64,000 nt of DNA. Source: Phytoamicus setariae (lineage in GTDB: Bacteria; Pseudomonadota; Alphaproteobacteria; Rhizobiales; Rhizobiaceae). Under the pieces are notes generated by a model. That model had not been told where the DNA came from and searched no databases. It was given only the letters and a program-made list of their open reading frames with translations. A program made the translations under genes and the position numbers. The stretch spans positions 186,001 through 250,000 of the forward strand of contig NZ_JAEQNC010000006.1 in NCBI RefSeq assembly GCF_016722925.1, read 5' to 3'. Every line of letters begins with the position of its first letter. Position 1 is the first letter of the stretch. This document shows positions 8,301 through 54,623 of this stretch, in pieces.

Positions 8301-11108
<2,808 letters not shown>

Positions 11109-46071: not shown

Positions 46072-47034
46072 ATGCACAGCACAACGGCCACTCCCACACT
46101 TGGCGAAAACGGAAAGTTGATTGAGCGCCATTGGCGCGAAATGTCAGCCCGGCGCCGGACCTACTCTGCGATCGGATTGCTGTTGCTGGCGCTGGCGCTC
46201 GGCGCTTCGCTCTGGTTTGCCAATGACAGCAATTCCGGCAAGTTCTTCGACCGGCTGCCGCATCTTTTCGATTTTGTCGAAGAGTTGATACCCCGCGATC
46301 CCTGGGAGGTCTTCAGGGCGCTGCTGGACCTGCGATCCCCCTATGACGACGGCAGTTTCAAATACAACTACGTGGAGGGCCGCTACTACGTCACCAGTAG
46401 CCTCTACATCCCCGAATATGTCTACAAGATGCTCGAGACGGTCAATATCGCGATATTCTCGACGCTGATCGGCATGACGTTCGGCTTCATCCTCAGCTTT
46501 CTCGCCGCGAAAAACATGATGCCAAGCCGCTGGGTCCGCGCACCGGTACGACGGATCATGGAAATTCTGCGGGCATTTCCCGAAGTCGTCATCGCAGGAT
46601 TTTTCCTGGCGATCCTGTCGCTCGGACCTGTGCCGGCCATTATCGCGGTGACGATCCATACGATCGGCGCGCTGGGCAAGATGTTCTACGAGGTGGTCGA
46701 AAATGCCGACATGAAACCCGATGAAGGGCTCCGCGCGGCCGGTGGAAACTGGTTTGAGCGCGTCTGGTTCGGCATGGTGCCGCAGGTGATGCCCAACTTC
46801 GTCTCCTATGCGCTGCTGCGCCTGGAGATCAACGTCCGCGCCTCCACCATCATCGGTGCGGTGGGCGGCGGCGGCATCGGCGAGTTGCTCAGGCTCTCGA
46901 TCAGCCAGGGCCATGAGGCAAAGACGCTGGCGATCATCATGCTGCTGCTCGCCACAATCATTGCCGTCGATCAATTCTCGGCCTGGCTGCGGCGCAAACT
47001 TGCCGGCGACCACGCTTTTCAAACCCTACATTGA
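46072..47034 (+). CDS. phnE: Phosphonate ABC transporter permease PhnE (first)
   Basis: A 320-residue inner-membrane permease. After a first span (SAIGLLLLALALGASLWF) and a roughly 70-residue periplasmic part, the BPD_transp core has about five spans; the EAA-like motif is AGGNWFERVWFGMVPQVMPNF near residue 222, followed by RASTIIGAVGGGGIGELL. A second permease gene overlaps or follows within 15 bases; the two likely form a heterodimer. GGCAAAGAAAGAAC is a weak ribosome-binding site. Confidence 0.93.
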   Translation: MHSTTATPTLGENGKLIERHWREMSARRRTYSAIGLLLLALALGASLWFANDSNSGKFFDRLPHLFDFVEELIPRDPWEVFRALLDLRSPYDDGSFKYNYVEGRYYVTSSLYIPEYVYKMLETVNIAIFSTLIGMTFGFILSFLAAKNMMPSRWVRAPVRRIMEILRAFPEVVIAGFFLAILSLGPVPAIIAVTIHTIGALGKMFYEVVENADMKPDEGLRAAGGNWFERVWFGMVPQVMPNFVSYALLRLEINVRASTIIGAVGGGGIGELLRLSISQGHEAKTLAIIMLLLATIIAVDQFSAWLRRKLAGDHAFQTLH

Positions 47035-47048
47035 GCCGGAGTCTGGCA

Positions 47049-48542
47049 ATGAATGCAATCGACATGGAAATGGTCGCCGCCAGGTATCCGGCGCTTGTCA
47101 CACGACCAGGATGGCAGCGGCTGAGGATACCGGTAGTCCTCACCGTCACCACCCTCTATCTTCTCTTCAGCTTCTGGTTCTTCTCGTTCGCCCAAGTCTT
47201 CTCGACAGCCAATTGGGGCATCGCCGGCGCATATCTGGCGGATTGGGTCAGCTATGAAGAGCGACCCGACATCCGCATCGAAGCCGACGGCGCAATGCGC
47301 GTGGTCTTTCCGAACAATTCCTCGCTTGGTGCCGATCCCCACCCGGACTGGCTGACGAAGGACACGGCAACGATTACCCGCGCAGTTGAGGTGCAAGCTG
47401 CAGCCAAAGCGGCGCCGGCTGAAAAATCGTCGACTTTCAACTTCATGGCCCCGGATCCTGCAGCGGTGGCGACGCCGGATCAACCGGTCAACAAGATGGT
47501 CAAAACAATCGATGAGACCGTCGTTACCCGCGCTAGCGTGCGATTCAGCGGTTCGATTTCTGCCGACATAACAGCAACGCGCGTTGAAATTCGCAATGGT
47601 GGCGACACCCTCACGCTGCCGCTTGGCGGAGCGGACATCCAACCGGTCGCCCCTCTGCCCGACTGGGCGTCACAGCCCTATGCCGGCGGTAAAGTTATCG
47701 TCAGCCTGGGCTTGCCGGGCTGGATGGAAGTCGAGCCGGATCGCGTCAAGATCCGCAAGCGCTTTCTCGGTTGGGCGAATTTCATCTTCGACACAAATTC
47801 GCGCTTCTTTGGCCGCACCACTGGCGAGGTAGTTTCGCTGATCGCGTCCGGTCCGAGGCTGGATCCGGGCCAGAGCAATGCATCGCTGGCGCTCAACGAC
47901 GTCCTTTACAATCCATCGTGGCAGCATCTGGATGTCTGGACCAAGCTGTTGCAGACGATTGTCATGGCCTTTGTCGGCACGCTGTTTGCAGCCGCCCTTT
48001 CCTTCCCGCTGGCATTCGTCGCTGCCCGCAACATCACCCGCAGCAGGATTGCCAATCAGGTGGCGAAGCGGTGCTTCGATTTCCTTCGATCAGTCGACAT
48101 GCTGATCTGGGCGCTGTTCTTCACTCGCGCGTTCGGTCCGGGACCGCTCGCCGGCATGTCGGCGATTTTCTTCACCGATACCGGCACGCTCGGCAAGCTT
48201 TACAGTGAAGCGCTGGAGAACATCGACAACAAGCCGCGCGAGGGTATTCGCTCGGTGGGGGCCGCGGCGCCCGCCGTCCATCGGTTCGCCATCATCCCTC
48301 AGGTTCTGCCGGTTTTCGTCAGCCAGGCCCTCTATTTCTGGGAATCCAACACCCGTTCGGCCACGATCATCGGCGCGGTTGGCGCGGGGGGCATCGGCCT
48401 CAAGCTCTGGGAAGCGATGCGCACCAATTCGGACTGGGAGAATGTGGCCTATATGGTGATCCTGATCCTTATCGTGGTCTACATCTTCGACACGTTGTCG
48501 AATGTCCTGCGTTCAAAACTGATCGGACCGGTTTCACGCTAG
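47049..48542 (+). CDS. phnE: Phosphonate ABC transporter permease PhnE (second, with large periplasmic insert)
   Basis: A 497-residue second permease, nearly twice the usual PhnE length. After span 1 (near residues 30-50, TLYLLFSFWFFSFAQVF) comes an insert of about 240 residues, mostly beta-like and hydrophilic (for example PDIRIEADGAMRVVFPN and VEPDRVKIRKRFLGWANF), before the normal permease core with VGAAAPAVHRFAIIPQVLPVF and RSATIIGAVGAGGIGLKL. Start ATG 47049 has GGAG seven bases upstream; a TTG start at 47031 overlaps phnE. The insert could contact PhnD; similar long forms are known in rhizobial phn clusters. Confidence 0.92.
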   Translation: MNAIDMEMVAARYPALVTRPGWQRLRIPVVLTVTTLYLLFSFWFFSFAQVFSTANWGIAGAYLADWVSYEERPDIRIEADGAMRVVFPNNSSLGADPHPDWLTKDTATITRAVEVQAAAKAAPAEKSSTFNFMAPDPAAVATPDQPVNKMVKTIDETVVTRASVRFSGSISADITATRVEIRNGGDTLTLPLGGADIQPVAPLPDWASQPYAGGKVIVSLGLPGWMEVEPDRVKIRKRFLGWANFIFDTNSRFFGRTTGEVVSLIASGPRLDPGQSNASLALNDVLYNPSWQHLDVWTKLLQTIVMAFVGTLFAAALSFPLAFVAARNITRSRIANQVAKRCFDFLRSVDMLIWALFFTRAFGPGPLAGMSAIFFTDTGTLGKLYSEALENIDNKPREGIRSVGAAAPAVHRFAIIPQVLPVFVSQALYFWESNTRSATIIGAVGAGGIGLKLWEAMRTNSDWENVAYMVILILIVVYIFDTLSNVLRSKLIGPVSR

Positions 48543-48612
48543 TGTCACATAAACTCGCTAAGGCACCAACTCGGCTGCGGCGATGACCGCTCCGAGTCTC
48601 ACAGGAAACACC

Positions 48613-49320
48613 ATGCGCTACGCAATCTATTTCACGCCCCCGGAAGGCGATCGGCTCGCCGTTGCCGCCTCCGCCTGGCTAGGCCGTGATCCCGGCAGCA
48701 TTTTCCCGGTCGGCGAAACAGAAGCGGACGGATTCTCCGCAGCCGAGATATCGGCCCTGACGGCAGAGCCGCGGCGTTATGGCTTTCACGCCACGCTCAA
48801 GGCGCCGTTCGAACTGGCTGATAATGCTGACGAAGACGCGTTGCTTTCCGCTTTCGACGCGTTCGCCGAGGCAATGTCGGCGATCGAAATCAACTCCTTG
48901 TCACTTGGGCAACTGGGCTCGTTCTTTGCGCTCGTTCCCGGTCAATGGAGCAACGAGCTCGAAGCCTTTGCCGCAGAATGCGTGCGCCATTTCGAACCGT
49001 TCCGGGCGCCGATATCGGCGGCGGATATCCAGCGCAGGAAGCCCGACACGTTGAGCGCGAGCCAGTTGCACAATCTCGAAACCTGGGGCTACCCCTACGT
49101 GTTCGAGGATTTCCGTTTCCACATGACGTTGACGGGGCAGGTTCCCGCCGAGGCACAGGATGCCGTTCGTTCTGCGCTGGAAGCCCGCTTTGCCTCCTTC
49201 ATCGGCAAGCCTCTCGATATCTCCCATCTCGCACTATTCGCCGAACCCGAACGGGGAGCGCCCTTCTATCTCAAGAGGATCAAGCCTCTCAGGGCCGCCC
49301 GTGAAAAAAGGACTGCATGA
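48613..49320 (+). CDS. DUF1045 phosphonate-operon protein, likely 2H phosphoesterase
   Basis: A 235-residue cytoplasmic protein of the DUF1045 family that accompanies phn operons. It has the two hallmark motifs of 2H phosphoesterases: His59-Ala-Thr61 in YGFHATLKAPF and His170-Met-Thr172 in FRFHMTLTG, about 110 residues apart. 2H enzymes open 2',3'- or related cyclic phosphates. C-P lyase yields phosphoribosyl 1,2-cyclic phosphate, normally opened by PhnP, which is absent from this cluster, so this protein is a good candidate for that step (inference). Start ATG 48613 after ACAGGAAACACC. Confidence 0.85.
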   Translation: MRYAIYFTPPEGDRLAVAASAWLGRDPGSIFPVGETEADGFSAAEISALTAEPRRYGFHATLKAPFELADNADEDALLSAFDAFAEAMSAIEINSLSLGQLGSFFALVPGQWSNELEAFAAECVRHFEPFRAPISAADIQRRKPDTLSASQLHNLETWGYPYVFEDFRFHMTLTGQVPAEAQDAVRSALEARFASFIGKPLDISHLALFAEPERGAPFYLKRIKPLRAAREKRTA

Positions 49321-49321
49321 C

Positions 49322-50461
49322 ATGACCAAGCAAACAGTATTCAGGAATGCCCGGATCGTTCTCGAAGATGAAATGGTGACCGGGTCCATCGTCATCGAGG
49401 ATGGACGGATCGCCGACATCGATACCGGCCCGAACACGGTCGGCGAAGATTTCGAAGGCGACTACCTGATCCCGGGCCTGATCGAGTTGCACACCGATCA
49501 TCTGGAGTCGCACTATTCGCCCCGCCCTGGCGTCCGCTGGATGAAAACGGCAGCTATTCAGGCCCATGACGCCCAGGTCGCGGCGTCAGGCATTACAACG
49601 GTGTTCGACTGCCTCAGAATGGGCTCAGACGAGGATGGCGGGTTCGAAAAGGGTGAGATGCGTGACATGGCCGATGCGCTTGCCGCTGCGGCTCGCGACA
49701 ATCGGCTGAAGGCCGAGCATCTGATCCATTTGCGCTGCGAGGTCTCGTCCGCCGACGTGATGGACCACTTCGAATGCTTCGAAGACGATGCTCAGGTCCG
49801 GCTGGTCTCGCTGATGGACCATGCGCCCGGCCAGCGGCAGTTCCAGACCATGGAGCAGTACACGCTCTACTACCAGACCAAGCGCGGCATGTCGGACGAA
49901 GCCTTCGCCACGTTTGTCGCCCGCCGACAGGAAGCATCCGCCCTCTATGCCAAGAAGCACCGCGATGCGATCGTCGATGCATGCGCAGGTCGCGGCATCA
50001 CGGTGGCTTCGCACGATGATGCAACAATCGAGCATGTCAACGAATCCATCGGCTACGGCGTGCGGCTTGCGGAATTCCCGACCAGCCTGGAAGCTGCGCG
50101 CGCATCCCACGAAGCGGGTCTCAGCGTGTTGATGGGCGCTCCAAACATCGTTCGCGGCAAGTCGCATTCGGGCAACATTTCCGCCCGTGACCTGTCAGAT
50201 GCCGGCATCCTAGATGTGTTGTCGTCGGACTATGTGCCGCTCAGCCTCGTGCATGCGCCGTTCGTTCTGAGCGACGGAGATGACGGCATGGCGTTGCCGA
50301 AAGCCATCGCCATGGTCACGGCGACCCCTGCCCGCACAGTGGGCCTTGACGATCGCGGCCGGATTGCCGATGGCCTTCGCGCCGACCTCGTCCGCATCCA
50401 TCGCAAGGATGGCGTGCCGGTGGTGCGTTCGGTCTGGCGTGAAGGGCACCGGGTGATATGA
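49322..50461 (+). CDS. phnM: Alpha-D-ribose 1-methylphosphonate 5-triphosphate diphosphatase
   Basis: An amidohydrolase-family enzyme that removes pyrophosphate from the nucleosidase product to give the 5-phosphate substrate of PhnJ. The 379 residues have the metal-binding IELHTDHLESHYSPRPGVRW near residue 54, FDCLRMGSDEDGG near 97 and VASHDDATIEHV near 225; SGNISARDLSDAGILDVLSSDY near 285 gives the final Asp. Start ATG 49322 follows the DUF1045 stop by one base; it overlaps phnN by four bases. Confidence 0.95.
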   Translation: MTKQTVFRNARIVLEDEMVTGSIVIEDGRIADIDTGPNTVGEDFEGDYLIPGLIELHTDHLESHYSPRPGVRWMKTAAIQAHDAQVAASGITTVFDCLRMGSDEDGGFEKGEMRDMADALAAAARDNRLKAEHLIHLRCEVSSADVMDHFECFEDDAQVRLVSLMDHAPGQRQFQTMEQYTLYYQTKRGMSDEAFATFVARRQEASALYAKKHRDAIVDACAGRGITVASHDDATIEHVNESIGYGVRLAEFPTSLEAARASHEAGLSVLMGAPNIVRGKSHSGNISARDLSDAGILDVLSSDYVPLSLVHAPFVLSDGDDGMALPKAIAMVTATPARTVGLDDRGRIADGLRADLVRIHRKDGVPVVRSVWREGHRVI

Positions 50462-51057
50462 ACAGCGATGATACAAGCGCCGCCGGTACGATGGTCGTCG
50501 TCGTCGGGCCGAGTGGCGCCGGCAAGGACAGTCTGATGGACTATGCCCGGCAGCGGCTGCGGGACAACGACGCATACCAATTCGTGCAGCGTTGCATCAC
50601 CCGTGACAGCGCTGCGGGCGGCGAGGATCACCAGCCGGTGACCATCGATGAATTCGAGGACATGCGCCGGCAAGGTAGGTTCGCGGTGTCCTGGGGCGCG
50701 CACGAACTGTTTTATGGTATCCCCGCGCAATCGCTGGAAGAGGTTCAGCGTGGCCGGACGCTCATCGCCAACGGTTCGCGCATTGCGATACCGGAATTCA
50801 GGAAGGTCTATCCAAACCTAGTCGTCGTCTCGATAACCGCCGATCGCGCGGTCATCGCCAAGCGATTGATGGCGAGAGGCCGCGAAACCGCCGAGGAAAT
50901 CGAGCGGCGCCTCAATCGCGCCGCCGACGCCTGGGAAACCGATTGCGAGATCGTCGCAATCGACAACAGCACGTCGCTTGAGAGCGCCGGCGAACGGTTC
51001 GTGTCGGCGTTGCTGGCCATTGCCGGCGTCAGGGTCCCCGAAACGGTGGCAGAATAG
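50458..51057 (+). CDS. phnN: Ribose 1,5-bisphosphate phosphokinase
   Basis: Converts ribose 1,5-bisphosphate, the end product of the C-P lyase route, into PRPP. The 199 residues begin with a P-loop (VVVVGPSGAGKDSLMDYARQ, residues 12-31), then RCITRDSAAGGEDHQPVT near 42 and SWGAHELFYGIP near 78 (guanylate-kinase-like fold). It is the last gene of the phnC-led unit; the 214 bases after it contain repeats but no terminator I could identify. Confidence 0.94.
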   Translation: MNSDDTSAAGTMVVVVGPSGAGKDSLMDYARQRLRDNDAYQFVQRCITRDSAAGGEDHQPVTIDEFEDMRRQGRFAVSWGAHELFYGIPAQSLEEVQRGRTLIANGSRIAIPEFRKVYPNLVVVSITADRAVIAKRLMARGRETAEEIERRLNRAADAWETDCEIVAIDNSTSLESAGERFVSALLAIAGVRVPETVAE

Positions 51058-51880: not shown

Positions 51881-52996
51881 TCAGGCCTCGATTTCGACTG
51901 CGGTCAAAGGCCGCGAACAGCAGGCGAGAATATAGCCTTCTTCGATCTCATGACCGGCGATACCGCCATTGTGCTTCATCTCCACCTCGCCCGAGCGTTT
52001 CTTGACCTTGCAGGTGCCGCAGAGGCCGGATTCGCAAGCCGCCGGGATGCGTACACCCACGGTCCGGGCGGTCTGCAGCACCGTCTGCCCCTCGATGCAA
52101 AGGGCTTCCTCGCCCGACCCCAGGAAACTGACGGCATGCTTTACGCCATCGGCCCTGCCGGCAACGGCGTCGTCATTTGCAGGTGTCTGCGCGATTTCGG
52201 TCAGTGCTGTCGCACCGAAGCTTTCCTGATGGTAGCGGCCCATGTCGAAGCCTTCGGCGCGAACGATGTTGCTCACCGCTTTCATGAACGGGTCAGGGCC
52301 GCAACAGAAAATCTCCCGGCTGATGAAATCCGGCGCGAGCATGGACAGCTTCTGGATATCGATACGCCCCATCAGCCCAGCCCATGGTGAACTGCCTGAA
52401 CGCGATTCCGGGATAAAGCCGAGCTTCAGGTTCGGCATTCGAGTGCCCAAAAGTTCCAGTTCCTCGCGGAAGACGATCTCTTCCGGCCGGCGCGAAGAAT
52501 TGATGAAGGTGACATCGGTCCCCGGCGCGCAATCGGCCAGCCAGCGCAGCATCGACATGCCGGGCGTGATGCCAGAACCCGCGGAGATGAAGAGATACTT
52601 CTTTGCAAGATTGCGGCCGAGCGTGAAATGCCCCGAAGGGCCGTAGGCACGGATGCGGCTGCCTGGCTTTACATTGTCGAACATCCATCGCGTGCCGACG
52701 CTGTTTGGCTGCGCCTTGATGGTGATGGCGATGGCATAGGGCCGCGAAGGCGAGGACGAGATCGTGTAGGTACGATGCAGGTCGCCGCCCTTGGCCCTGA
52801 GTTCGACCGTGATGAACTGGCCGGGAACATAGCGGAACCAGCCGCCCCCCTCCACCGCGAAAGTGAAGGTCTTGACGTCTGGCGCCTCGTCAATGACTGC
52901 CGTGCAGACCAGCATCTGGCGCGCCGAATTCCAGGGCCTCAGTTCATCGAGGTGAAGCGCTGCCGGCACCATACCCATAACGTTCATCATGCTCAT
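51881..52996 (-). CDS. gbcB: Ferredoxin reductase component of a Rieske demethylase (GbcB-like)
   Basis: Electron-transfer partner of the adjacent Rieske oxygenase. The 371 residues have an FAD/FMN-binding barrel (FRYVPGQFITVELRAKGG, then LHRTYTISSSPSRPYAI), an NAD-binding domain (KKYLFISAGSGITPGMSML; EIFCCGPDPFM) and a C-terminal plant-type [2Fe-2S] domain with CESGLCGTCKVKKRSGEVEM and a fourth Cys in ILACCSRP. Start ATG 52996 follows GGGAGAGGTCGCG; a longer reading upstream runs into gbcA and is unlikely. It lies 13 bases after gbcA. Substrate follows the oxygenase assignment. Confidence 0.9.
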   Translation of the reverse strand: MSMMNVMGMVPAALHLDELRPWNSARQMLVCTAVIDEAPDVKTFTFAVEGGGWFRYVPGQFITVELRAKGGDLHRTYTISSSPSRPYAIAITIKAQPNSVGTRWMFDNVKPGSRIRAYGPSGHFTLGRNLAKKYLFISAGSGITPGMSMLRWLADCAPGTDVTFINSSRRPEEIVFREELELLGTRMPNLKLGFIPESRSGSSPWAGLMGRIDIQKLSMLAPDFISREIFCCGPDPFMKAVSNIVRAEGFDMGRYHQESFGATALTEIAQTPANDDAVAGRADGVKHAVSFLGSGEEALCIEGQTVLQTARTVGVRIPAACESGLCGTCKVKKRSGEVEMKHNGGIAGHEIEEGYILACCSRPLTAVEIEA

Positions 52997-53009
52997 CGCG
53001 ACCTCTCCC

Positions 53010-54257
53010 TCAGGCGACGGAACGTAGGGCGGGTTTGCCGAGGCCGGAAAGACGCTCTTCCATGAAGCCGGCATACCACTCGACAAATTGAGCGACGCCA
53101 CCTTCATGCACCTCGGAATATGGACCGGGTTCGTAAGCCGGCGAATGAATGCCGAAGGCGTTTTCCTCGACGATCTGGCGATCCTGATCGTTGGTCTCCG
53201 TCCAGACATGAGTTAGTTCGTCGAGACGGTAATCGATCCCTTCTACCGCATCCTTGTGAACGAGCCACTTGGTGGTGACAGCCGTTTCGGTCGGACTGAT
53301 AGGCAGGACGCGGAAGGTAACCGCATGGTCGCTCAGCACGTGGTTCCATGTCGTGGGATAGTGATAAAGCAACAGCGAGCCGATGCGGTCCATGTTGACC
53401 TGGTCGGAGAGGCGCATCTGCACGGCCTTGCGGCCCGAGATCGTATAGCTGATTGCATCGCGCAGCAGCGGGACGCGCGTCGTGCGGTACTGGCCACGAT
53501 CATCGATCACGAAAGCGCTCGGAAGGCCGGCGGCCTCGCACTTTTCCCAGTGCGCCGCGATTTCTGGATCCTCAGCGGCGCCATTGACGCCGGTGACGCT
53601 CGGCGCCTCCGGAAAGGTTTTGCAGAGTTCGGGATGGTTGCCCGCGCAATGGTAGCATTCGCGGTTGTTTTCCCAGACGAGCTTCCAGTTGCCCTTCTCG
53701 ATGATCGTGCTCTCGAAGGCGATCTTGGCGTCGCGCAGCCGGTGCGGCAGAAAATAGGGCTCCATCATGGCCCGGAACGGCGCAAAATCCATCGGCTCGT
53801 CGGCTAGGCAGATGAAAATGTAGCCACCGGCGATCTCGCAGGCGACGGGCTTCAGGCTGAAATTCGCAGTGTCGAAGGTGTCGCCCATCTGGCGGGCATA
53901 GAGCAGCGTGCCGTCGAGTTCATATGTCCACTGGTGGTAAGGGCAGACGAGCTTGGCCGATGTGCCCTTGTGCTGGTTGCAGACACGCGAGCCACGGTGG
54001 CGACAGGAATTGTGAAGTGCGTTGATTTTTCCATCGTTGTCGCGAACGATGACGACAGGATAGGCGCCGACCTGGACGGTCATGTAGTTGCCGGGATTGG
54101 GCAATTCGCAGTCGTGGCCGACAAACAGCCAGTCCTTGTACCAGATGTGCTCGAGATCGAGCTGGTGAAACGCCGGATCGATGTAGAAGGGTTGGTCAAG
54201 GCTGTAGCCCGGTTTGCGGCTTCTGAGCCGCGAAAGCATATCGTGTCCGACGTCCAT
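53010..54257 (-). CDS. gbcA: Rieske oxygenase, glycine betaine (or stachydrine) demethylase GbcA-like
   Basis: A 415-residue oxygenase alpha subunit. The Rieske motif is CRHRGSRVC, then LVCPYHQWTYEL (near residues 85-120); the mononuclear iron site is NRECYHCAGNHPEL near 200 with a downstream Asp. The first 30 residues and the GLKPVACE-type segment match the betaine demethylase branch. In that branch it oxidises an N-methyl group of glycine betaine to give dimethylglycine and formaldehyde; stachydrine demethylase (Stc2) is a close relative and cannot be excluded. AGGACAGGAC precedes the ATG. An intact cobalamin riboswitch lies 140 bases upstream and reads into it. Confidence 0.88.
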   Translation of the reverse strand: MDVGHDMLSRLRSRKPGYSLDQPFYIDPAFHQLDLEHIWYKDWLFVGHDCELPNPGNYMTVQVGAYPVVIVRDNDGKINALHNSCRHRGSRVCNQHKGTSAKLVCPYHQWTYELDGTLLYARQMGDTFDTANFSLKPVACEIAGGYIFICLADEPMDFAPFRAMMEPYFLPHRLRDAKIAFESTIIEKGNWKLVWENNRECYHCAGNHPELCKTFPEAPSVTGVNGAAEDPEIAAHWEKCEAAGLPSAFVIDDRGQYRTTRVPLLRDAISYTISGRKAVQMRLSDQVNMDRIGSLLLYHYPTTWNHVLSDHAVTFRVLPISPTETAVTTKWLVHKDAVEGIDYRLDELTHVWTETNDQDRQIVEENAFGIHSPAYEPGPYSEVHEGGVAQFVEWYAGFMEERLSGLGKPALRSVA

Positions 54258-54397
54258 GTCCTGTCCTCGTCATATCAGGAACTGAGCGTAGATGGACAGG
54301 GAGGGAATAGTCATCGCAACGGCCGGATTGGTAGCCCGGAAGCCGCAAGTATCCACCTCCTGAGCGCCCACCGCGATCAGTCGAATAATAGTTCCCG

Positions 54398-54573
54398 AGG
54401 CTGGTTTCCGGGCTCCGAAGTGGTCCGGCCGGACCATTGCGACTCCTTCCCGGGTAAAAACCCAGTGGACTCCCATCGCAATCACACTTCACCACCGTTG
54501 CGGGGGCAGCGCCGGATTTGTCACCGGCTTCCCAATTCTCCGATCGGATCCAACCCGACCGGCACCTCGATGA
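54398..54573 (-). ncRNA. Cobalamin riboswitch
   Basis: Read leftwards the RNA has all core elements in order: GAGGTGCC at the 5' end, GGGAAGCCGGTG (54533-54522), the invariant B12 box GCCCCCGCAAC (54507-54497), GTCCACTGGG (54470-54461), GGGAAGG, and the 3' strand AGCCCGGAAACCAGCC (54414-54399). The 12-base AGCCCGGAAACC can pair at 11 positions with GGCTTCCGGGCT (54344-54333), an expected expression-platform switch. No typical B12-pathway gene follows; the next gene in this direction is gbcA, 140 bases away. The rest of the 54258-54746 gap holds the expression platform and, upstream, direct repeats. Confidence 0.93.
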
Positions 54574-54593
54574 CGCTAATATGCCCATAGACA

Positions 54594-54623
54594 TTGCGAC
54601 ATCGAGGTGCGTTTGCGACATCG
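54594..54623. promoter_or_regulatory. Tandem TTGCGACATCG repeats upstream of the riboswitch
   Basis: Two exact 11-base copies at 54594-54604 and 54613-54623, start to start 19 bases. They flank the likely promoter of the riboswitch transcript and are 124 bases before osmC. CATCGAGGTGC (54600-54610) also pairs perfectly with GCACCTCGATG (54562-54572). Two direct repeats about two helical turns apart suit an AraC-type activator such as GbdR, but the identity is not shown. Confidence 0.5.

Follow-up and report, generated by a model that had tools for sequence, protein, structure and literature searches.

Among the genes controlled by cobalamin riboswitches, metE and nrdA are standard members of the B12-independent isozyme targets: riboswitch-controlled metE stands in for metH and nrdAB for nrdJ. 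For the demethylation of glycine betaine, a B12-dependent enzyme system, MtgBCD, has been described in marine bacteria; in the main text of that report the word "riboswitch" occurs solely within a reference title (PMC12478193). A survey published in 2013 named "isozymes of B12-dependent enzymes" as a cobalamin riboswitch target class; its main text contains none of the terms "betaine", "gbc", "Rieske" and "demethylase", and its supplementary tables may list such a target (PMC3766115). In S. meliloti a cobalamin riboswitch upstream of SMc00982 was listed from Rfam (PMC2245857) and also in a Table 3 (PMC2573895), and in passages on these genes SMc00982 is described as "likely encoding a dioxygenase" (PMC2848018) and SMc00981 as a "putative ferredoxin protein" (PMC12542648).

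The riboswitch, the gbcAB-like pair and an MtgB/C/D-like system

In the 64-kb stretch of DNA that was analysed (the window), a cobalamin riboswitch aptamer (RF00174) occupies positions 54382-54584 of the minus strand. An intact element on this strand had been proposed in a sequence-only reading and the covariance search bears this out, with a full-length match (model positions 1-189 of 189, cmscan 106.7 bits vs a gathering score of 31.5, E 1e-25); one tRNA was the sole other family above threshold in the window. The start codon of a gbcA-like gene (ATG at 54257) lies 124 bases downstream of the aptamer on the same strand, and the next minus-strand gene is thus, as had also been read, that of a gbcAB-like pair. 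Four RF00174 matches are present in the whole genome, one of them being the gbcA leader; of the others, two precede bluB and cbtBA and the third is followed, after about 470 bases, by an ABC transporter ATPase gene, so that these other cobalamin riboswitches are ordinary in target.

The first gene of the pair (53010-54257, minus strand) encodes a Rieske oxygenase subunit of 415 aa whose best NCBIfam model is NF058607 (GbcA) and which is named GbcA-like since its score is below the cut-off (516 vs 670 bits); the second (51881-52999, minus strand) encodes a reductase subunit, GbcB-like for the same reason (best model NF058606, GbcB, 369.7 vs 500 bits). The recognised genes past gbcB are phn genes on the opposite strand, hence the leader seems to serve gbcAB alone; these phosphonate genes (47031-51054, plus strand) are convergent to gbcB. 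On the upstream side osmC is divergent, and beyond it stands metH, whose proximity had been pointed out in the initial reading. Five of 10 neighbouring ORFs scanned had a Pfam match (threonylcarbamoyl synthase, CorA, amylase, FAD oxidase and DUF6656), in addition to one BA14K protein, and were of no help as a clue to the substrate.

Five MttB-family matches were detected in the genome. One of these genes, on contig C35, clusters within 11 kb with genes for an MtgC-like corrinoid protein, a methyltetrahydrofolate:corrinoid methyltransferase and a corrinoid-reactivation protein, a gene set like that of MtgBCD (PMC12478193), and the cluster also encodes a partly MetF-like protein. The MttB-family protein exceeds the cut-off of Pfam PF06253 (776.1 vs 25 bits), falls short of that of TIGR02369, a narrower model for trimethylamine (280 vs 525), and reaches 1046 bits with 4yyc ("putative trimethylamine methyltransferase") and 413 bits with 9yce ("glycine betaine methyltransferase"). 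The corrinoid protein fits NF047996 (MtgC) better than any other model, yet at 212.2 bits vs a cut-off of 370 it can only be called MtgC-like. Elsewhere in the genome, a second GbcA homologue (31%; L151, G000:C23:235035-237823) adjoins a divergent MttB-family match (361 bits), and long FAD-type ORFs near it resemble, as judged by eye, dimethylglycine/sarcosine dehydrogenases. The initial reading had held that gbcAB is no B12-independent isoenzyme gene; this view is not supported, since the genome holds an MtgB/C/D-like system and the riboswitch goes with MtgC (see below), and the gbcAB-like pair is probably the B12-independent isozyme.

These observations, together with the distribution and the leader predictions described below, make it quite likely that the riboswitch mediates B12-repressed translation of a B12-independent quaternary-amine demethylase, the MtgB/C/D-like route being used when B12 is plentiful. 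With ample B12, the riboswitch in the gbcAB mRNA leader would block translation of GbcAB and the MtgB/C/D-like methyltransferase would carry out the demethylation, the methyl group being kept on tetrahydrofolate; when B12 is short, GbcAB, a Rieske enzyme that uses O2 and is independent of B12, would be made and take over. We infer B12 as the ligand, repression as the direction of control and (glycine) betaine as the shared substrate; that GbcAB and the MtgB-like enzyme act on one substrate is suggested by family resemblance. The identity of this substrate is unsure because the GbcA, GbcB and MtgC homologues all score under their NCBIfam cut-offs.

A less probable version of the same switch would act on another substrate, proline betaine or a further quaternary amine, with an MttB-family partner for that compound. 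Against PDB entries 3vca ("ring-hydroxylating dioxygenase") and 4qup ("monoxygenase; demethylase"), which we take to be the proline-betaine demethylase Stc2, the GbcA-like protein reaches about 538 bits, vs 516 with the GbcA model, and the five MttB-family matches of the genome would leave room for such a partner. Conversely, riboswitch-linked relatives (L173 and L176) approach the GbcA cut-off of 670 with scores of 632 and 653, and the MtgB-like protein matches the structure named glycine betaine methyltransferase.

Distribution of the riboswitch and its association with MtgC

In a genus sample that includes the genome under study, the riboswitch stands beside a complete gbcA in 7/9 genomes. 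In G007 the riboswitch precedes a remnant in which the first 41 gbcA codons are joined to the final 44 of gbcB (L018 1833-2089; L196 3894-4150), due either to an internal deletion or to an assembly fault, and MtgC is still present in this genome; G005 has no gbcA orthologue, no riboswitch beside one and no MtgC. Among the best 80 GbcA loci of the named-record matches listed, nhmmer detected the riboswitch upstream of gbcA in 60, including loci of Sinorhizobium, Mesorhizobium, Aminobacter, Shinella, Rhizobium, Labrys and Inquilinus. All 48 of these positive loci that were submitted to cmscan were confirmed, and the 20 negative loci had no riboswitch by cmscan either. A class-wide sample of 387 genomes contained a GbcA homologue (E 1e-90) in 32, that of the window included; of the remaining 31, all but G236 and G363 had their loci retrieved, and 11 of these 29 loci carry the riboswitch.

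With the MtgC-like protein of the genome as query (E 1e-30), MtgC was found in 58/59 genomes with the riboswitch and 0/20 without it among 79 of the genomes of the best 80 GbcA loci listed (all except that of L101), the positives including fragments (L066, L083, L087 and L108) and one copy with an internal stop (L076). Among relatives, MtgC was present in 11/11 genomes with the riboswitch and a complete gbcA and in 0/5 without. A prediction had been set before the relatives were searched: MtgC was found in all four genomes where it was expected, counting a G011 copy with one internal stop, and in none of the five where its absence was expected. The figures for the 29 loci of the class sample were 11/11 with the riboswitch and 5/18 without.

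Pooling gave 122 genomes with a GbcA homologue, of which 79 have both riboswitch and MtgC, 37 neither, five MtgC alone and one the riboswitch alone; that is, with duplicates removed, MtgC occurs in 79/80 riboswitch genomes vs 5/42 without (Fisher p 1e-24, a value that ignores kinship). When phylogenetically independent pairs were drawn on a GbcA tree (G003 and G017, duplicates of L063 and L110, were dropped from the trees), 6.1 pairs pointed the same way, 0 the opposite way and 0.9 were undecided (median p 0.03), and with MtgC taken first the figures were 5.9, 0 and 3.1 of 9, on a wide tree made by a quick method and accompanied by treekit warnings of long branches. On a narrower tree, in which L116 was counted as a locus without the riboswitch, 4 of 4 pairs agreed (p 0.125). 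Seven loci of relatives (L048-L054), whose homologues are 37-49% identical, do not enter the pooled table; nhmmer detected no riboswitch in any of them and MtgC is present in 2/7 of the genomes (G040 and G054), so that with them the table reads 79 both, 1 riboswitch alone, 7 MtgC alone and 42 neither.

The link is not obligatory, given that in five of the 122 genomes MtgC and a GbcA homologue occur together and no riboswitch was found near the latter; in these five the GbcA homologues are 44-58% identical and nhmmer found no riboswitch in the 9-17 kb around them. The sole riboswitch without MtgC, that of Rhizobium sp. Leaf371 (L116, 3642-3833), scores 57.9 bits and has changed CCACUG and CCCCCGC boxes. 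Its genome has neither MtgC nor a close MttB-family match, and L110, its neighbour in the narrower tree, has no riboswitch; from its sequence, this riboswitch may be read as decaying after loss of the B12-dependent partner. An MttB-family protein close to MtgB (E <= 1e-60) was found in 15/15 riboswitch genomes and 0/30 MtgC-less genomes examined.

In the genomes examined the riboswitch is thus kept almost only where the B12-dependent counterpart is present, and therefore it probably turns the B12-free enzyme on at low B12. By extension, we regard as likely, with somewhat more reserve, an Alphaproteobacteria-wide B12-sparing switch in betaine demethylation between the Rieske enzyme and the methyltransferase, in which the riboswitch would decay once the B12-dependent enzyme is lost.

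MetH and other B12 regulation served as controls. A MetH match (E 1e-150) was obtained in 29/29 MtgC-less genomes examined, in some via a distant homologue of 33-34%, and in 8/10 riboswitch genomes examined, with none in G459 and G353; cobalamin riboswitches elsewhere in the genome are present in 28/29 of the MtgC-less genomes. Consequently, the pattern is not accounted for by MetH or by B12 regulation in general. This bears on the suggestion, made in the initial reading, that the riboswitch balances the use of methyl groups between betaine demethylation and methionine synthesis by MetH. In its favor, metH is near in the window and lies just upstream in two of the best 80 GbcA loci listed (L075 and L091, with flanks of up to 4 kb a side), a homocysteine-methyltransferase-like gene directly follows gbcAB in another two of these 80 (L097, 6643-7701, and L099, 6492-7691), and in S. 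meliloti the metabolism of betaine is connected with that of methionine (Barra 2006, as described in passages of PMC12478193). The neighboring genes, at 2/80 each, hint weakly at a tie to methionine; in L099 the homocysteine-methyltransferase-like gene is itself followed by a second GbcA-like one. However, it is MtgC that tracks the riboswitch, while a MetH match occurs in every MtgC-less genome examined and none at E 1e-150 was obtained in two of ten riboswitch genomes examined. B12 control of demethylation, as conceived in that reading, is likely, whereas its balance with MetH appears very improbable.

Very improbable as well is that low B12 turns on betaine demethylation to provide glycine for ALA and thence corrin synthesis. 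Betaine feeding raises the industrial yield of B12 and is said to act via ALA precursors in the portion of PMC8123684 that treats it, but this idea does not predict absence of the riboswitch where MtgC is absent, and 28/29 MtgC-less genomes examined do keep other cobalamin riboswitches. Finally, an orphan riboswitch left behind by gene loss, which the initial reading offered as the alternative and which a target outside the usual list might evoke, is scarcely credible and was rejected in view of its retention upstream of gbcA at 60/80 best listed and 11/29 class loci.

The leader between the aptamer and gbcA

Just 3' of the aptamer a P13-like hairpin with a GGUGG loop can be drawn at 54361-54379 (minus strand); in the window its stem has 3 pairs followed by a mismatch. 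In 64/70 riboswitch leaders a GGNGG loop is closed by 6 or more pairs, and the stem shows compensatory exchanges (C-G/U-A/U-G and A-U/G-C); the count leans towards this hairpin because the script sought it. Further downstream, the segment 54333-54341 (minus strand) is complementary to 54414-54406 of the aptamer. The pairing with the aptamer 3' strand noticed in the initial reading is real in this leader, with 9 contiguous Watson-Crick pairs reached by 0/30 shuffles, but it is not conserved: across 67 leaders the best helix averaged 5.49 vs 5.46 in shuffled sequences and 3/67 reached p 0.05, and this segment was discarded as a conserved switch.

An anti-Shine-Dalgarno strand, CUGUCC (54294-54299, minus strand), is predicted to form a 6-bp helix with 54266-54261, which is part of the minimum free energy fold of the leader, and 26% of shuffles also reach 6 bp. 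An anti-SD helix score of at least 6 was found in 38/71 riboswitch leaders and 0/25 leaders without the riboswitch. The longest contiguous anti-SD helix averaged 5.65 vs 4.93 after shuffling in the riboswitch leaders, an effect that is modest leader by leader (median p 0.28), and 4.14 vs 4.46 in those without. The ribosome-binding site region of gbcA, GAGGACAG (54261-54268, minus strand), has a predicted unpaired probability of 0.09 (0.27 in shuffles), and the median of this value was 0.04 in leaders with the riboswitch (n=68) vs 0.46 in those without (n=22), in related sequences uncorrected for kinship; it rose to 0.36 when the upstream part of the riboswitch leaders was shuffled. No intrinsic terminator was found (0 vs 0.8 in shuffles), and a scan for sigma-70 promoters, uninformative in itself, gave 0 matches. 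That the ribosome-binding site is predicted to be buried agrees with repression by B12 and, with the lack of a terminator, fits translational OFF control. A possible leader ORF of 14 codons (54314-54270, minus strand) spans the anti-SD strand and ends just before the ribosome-binding site of gbcA.

Comparison with known systems

The S. meliloti riboswitch upstream of SMc00982 is probably the same element as that of the window, and SMc00982/81 are presumably gbcAB orthologues. The listings of that riboswitch, in the parts that report it, give no function or B12 logic (PMC2245857; PMC2573895), in contrast with the control proposed here, and no paper linking it to betaine or MtgBCD was found in open-licence main texts. 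If correct, the proposed switch would assign a role to an S. meliloti riboswitch on record since 2007, would bring the breakdown of an osmolyte of major importance in plants and the sea under the control of B12 status and would suggest that rhizobia choose between two routes of betaine demethylation according to B12. Retention of a riboswitch only while a B12-dependent partner is present may also be a way to infer isozyme pairs. As regards MtgBCD, the gene set of the genome is similar, but the main text on the marine bacteria does not link gbcAB to a riboswitch (PMC12478193).

Cobalamin riboswitches of other genes were detected around some of the gbcA loci. In G522 two riboswitches lie back to back (L195, 5109-5614), that of gbcA and a second one (123.1 bits) that precedes the gene of a class I ribonucleotide reductase alpha subunit (nrdA); in L079 a riboswitch of 134.7 bits (8909-9124) precedes metE about 5 kb from the gbcA riboswitch. 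In L091 one of 120.6 bits precedes a TonB receptor gene whose product has a B12 receptor as best model, under its cut-off; G460 (L164) has two cobalamin riboswitches as well. The proposed gbcAB switch would work like those of metE (for metH) and nrdAB (for nrdJ), with which it shares the aptamer family, a target enzyme that needs no B12 and has a counterpart in the genome that does and, in L195 and L079, proximity of an nrdA or metE element to that of gbcA. It differs from them in its target, which is here a catabolic Rieske demethylase, whereas theirs are biosynthetic enzymes.
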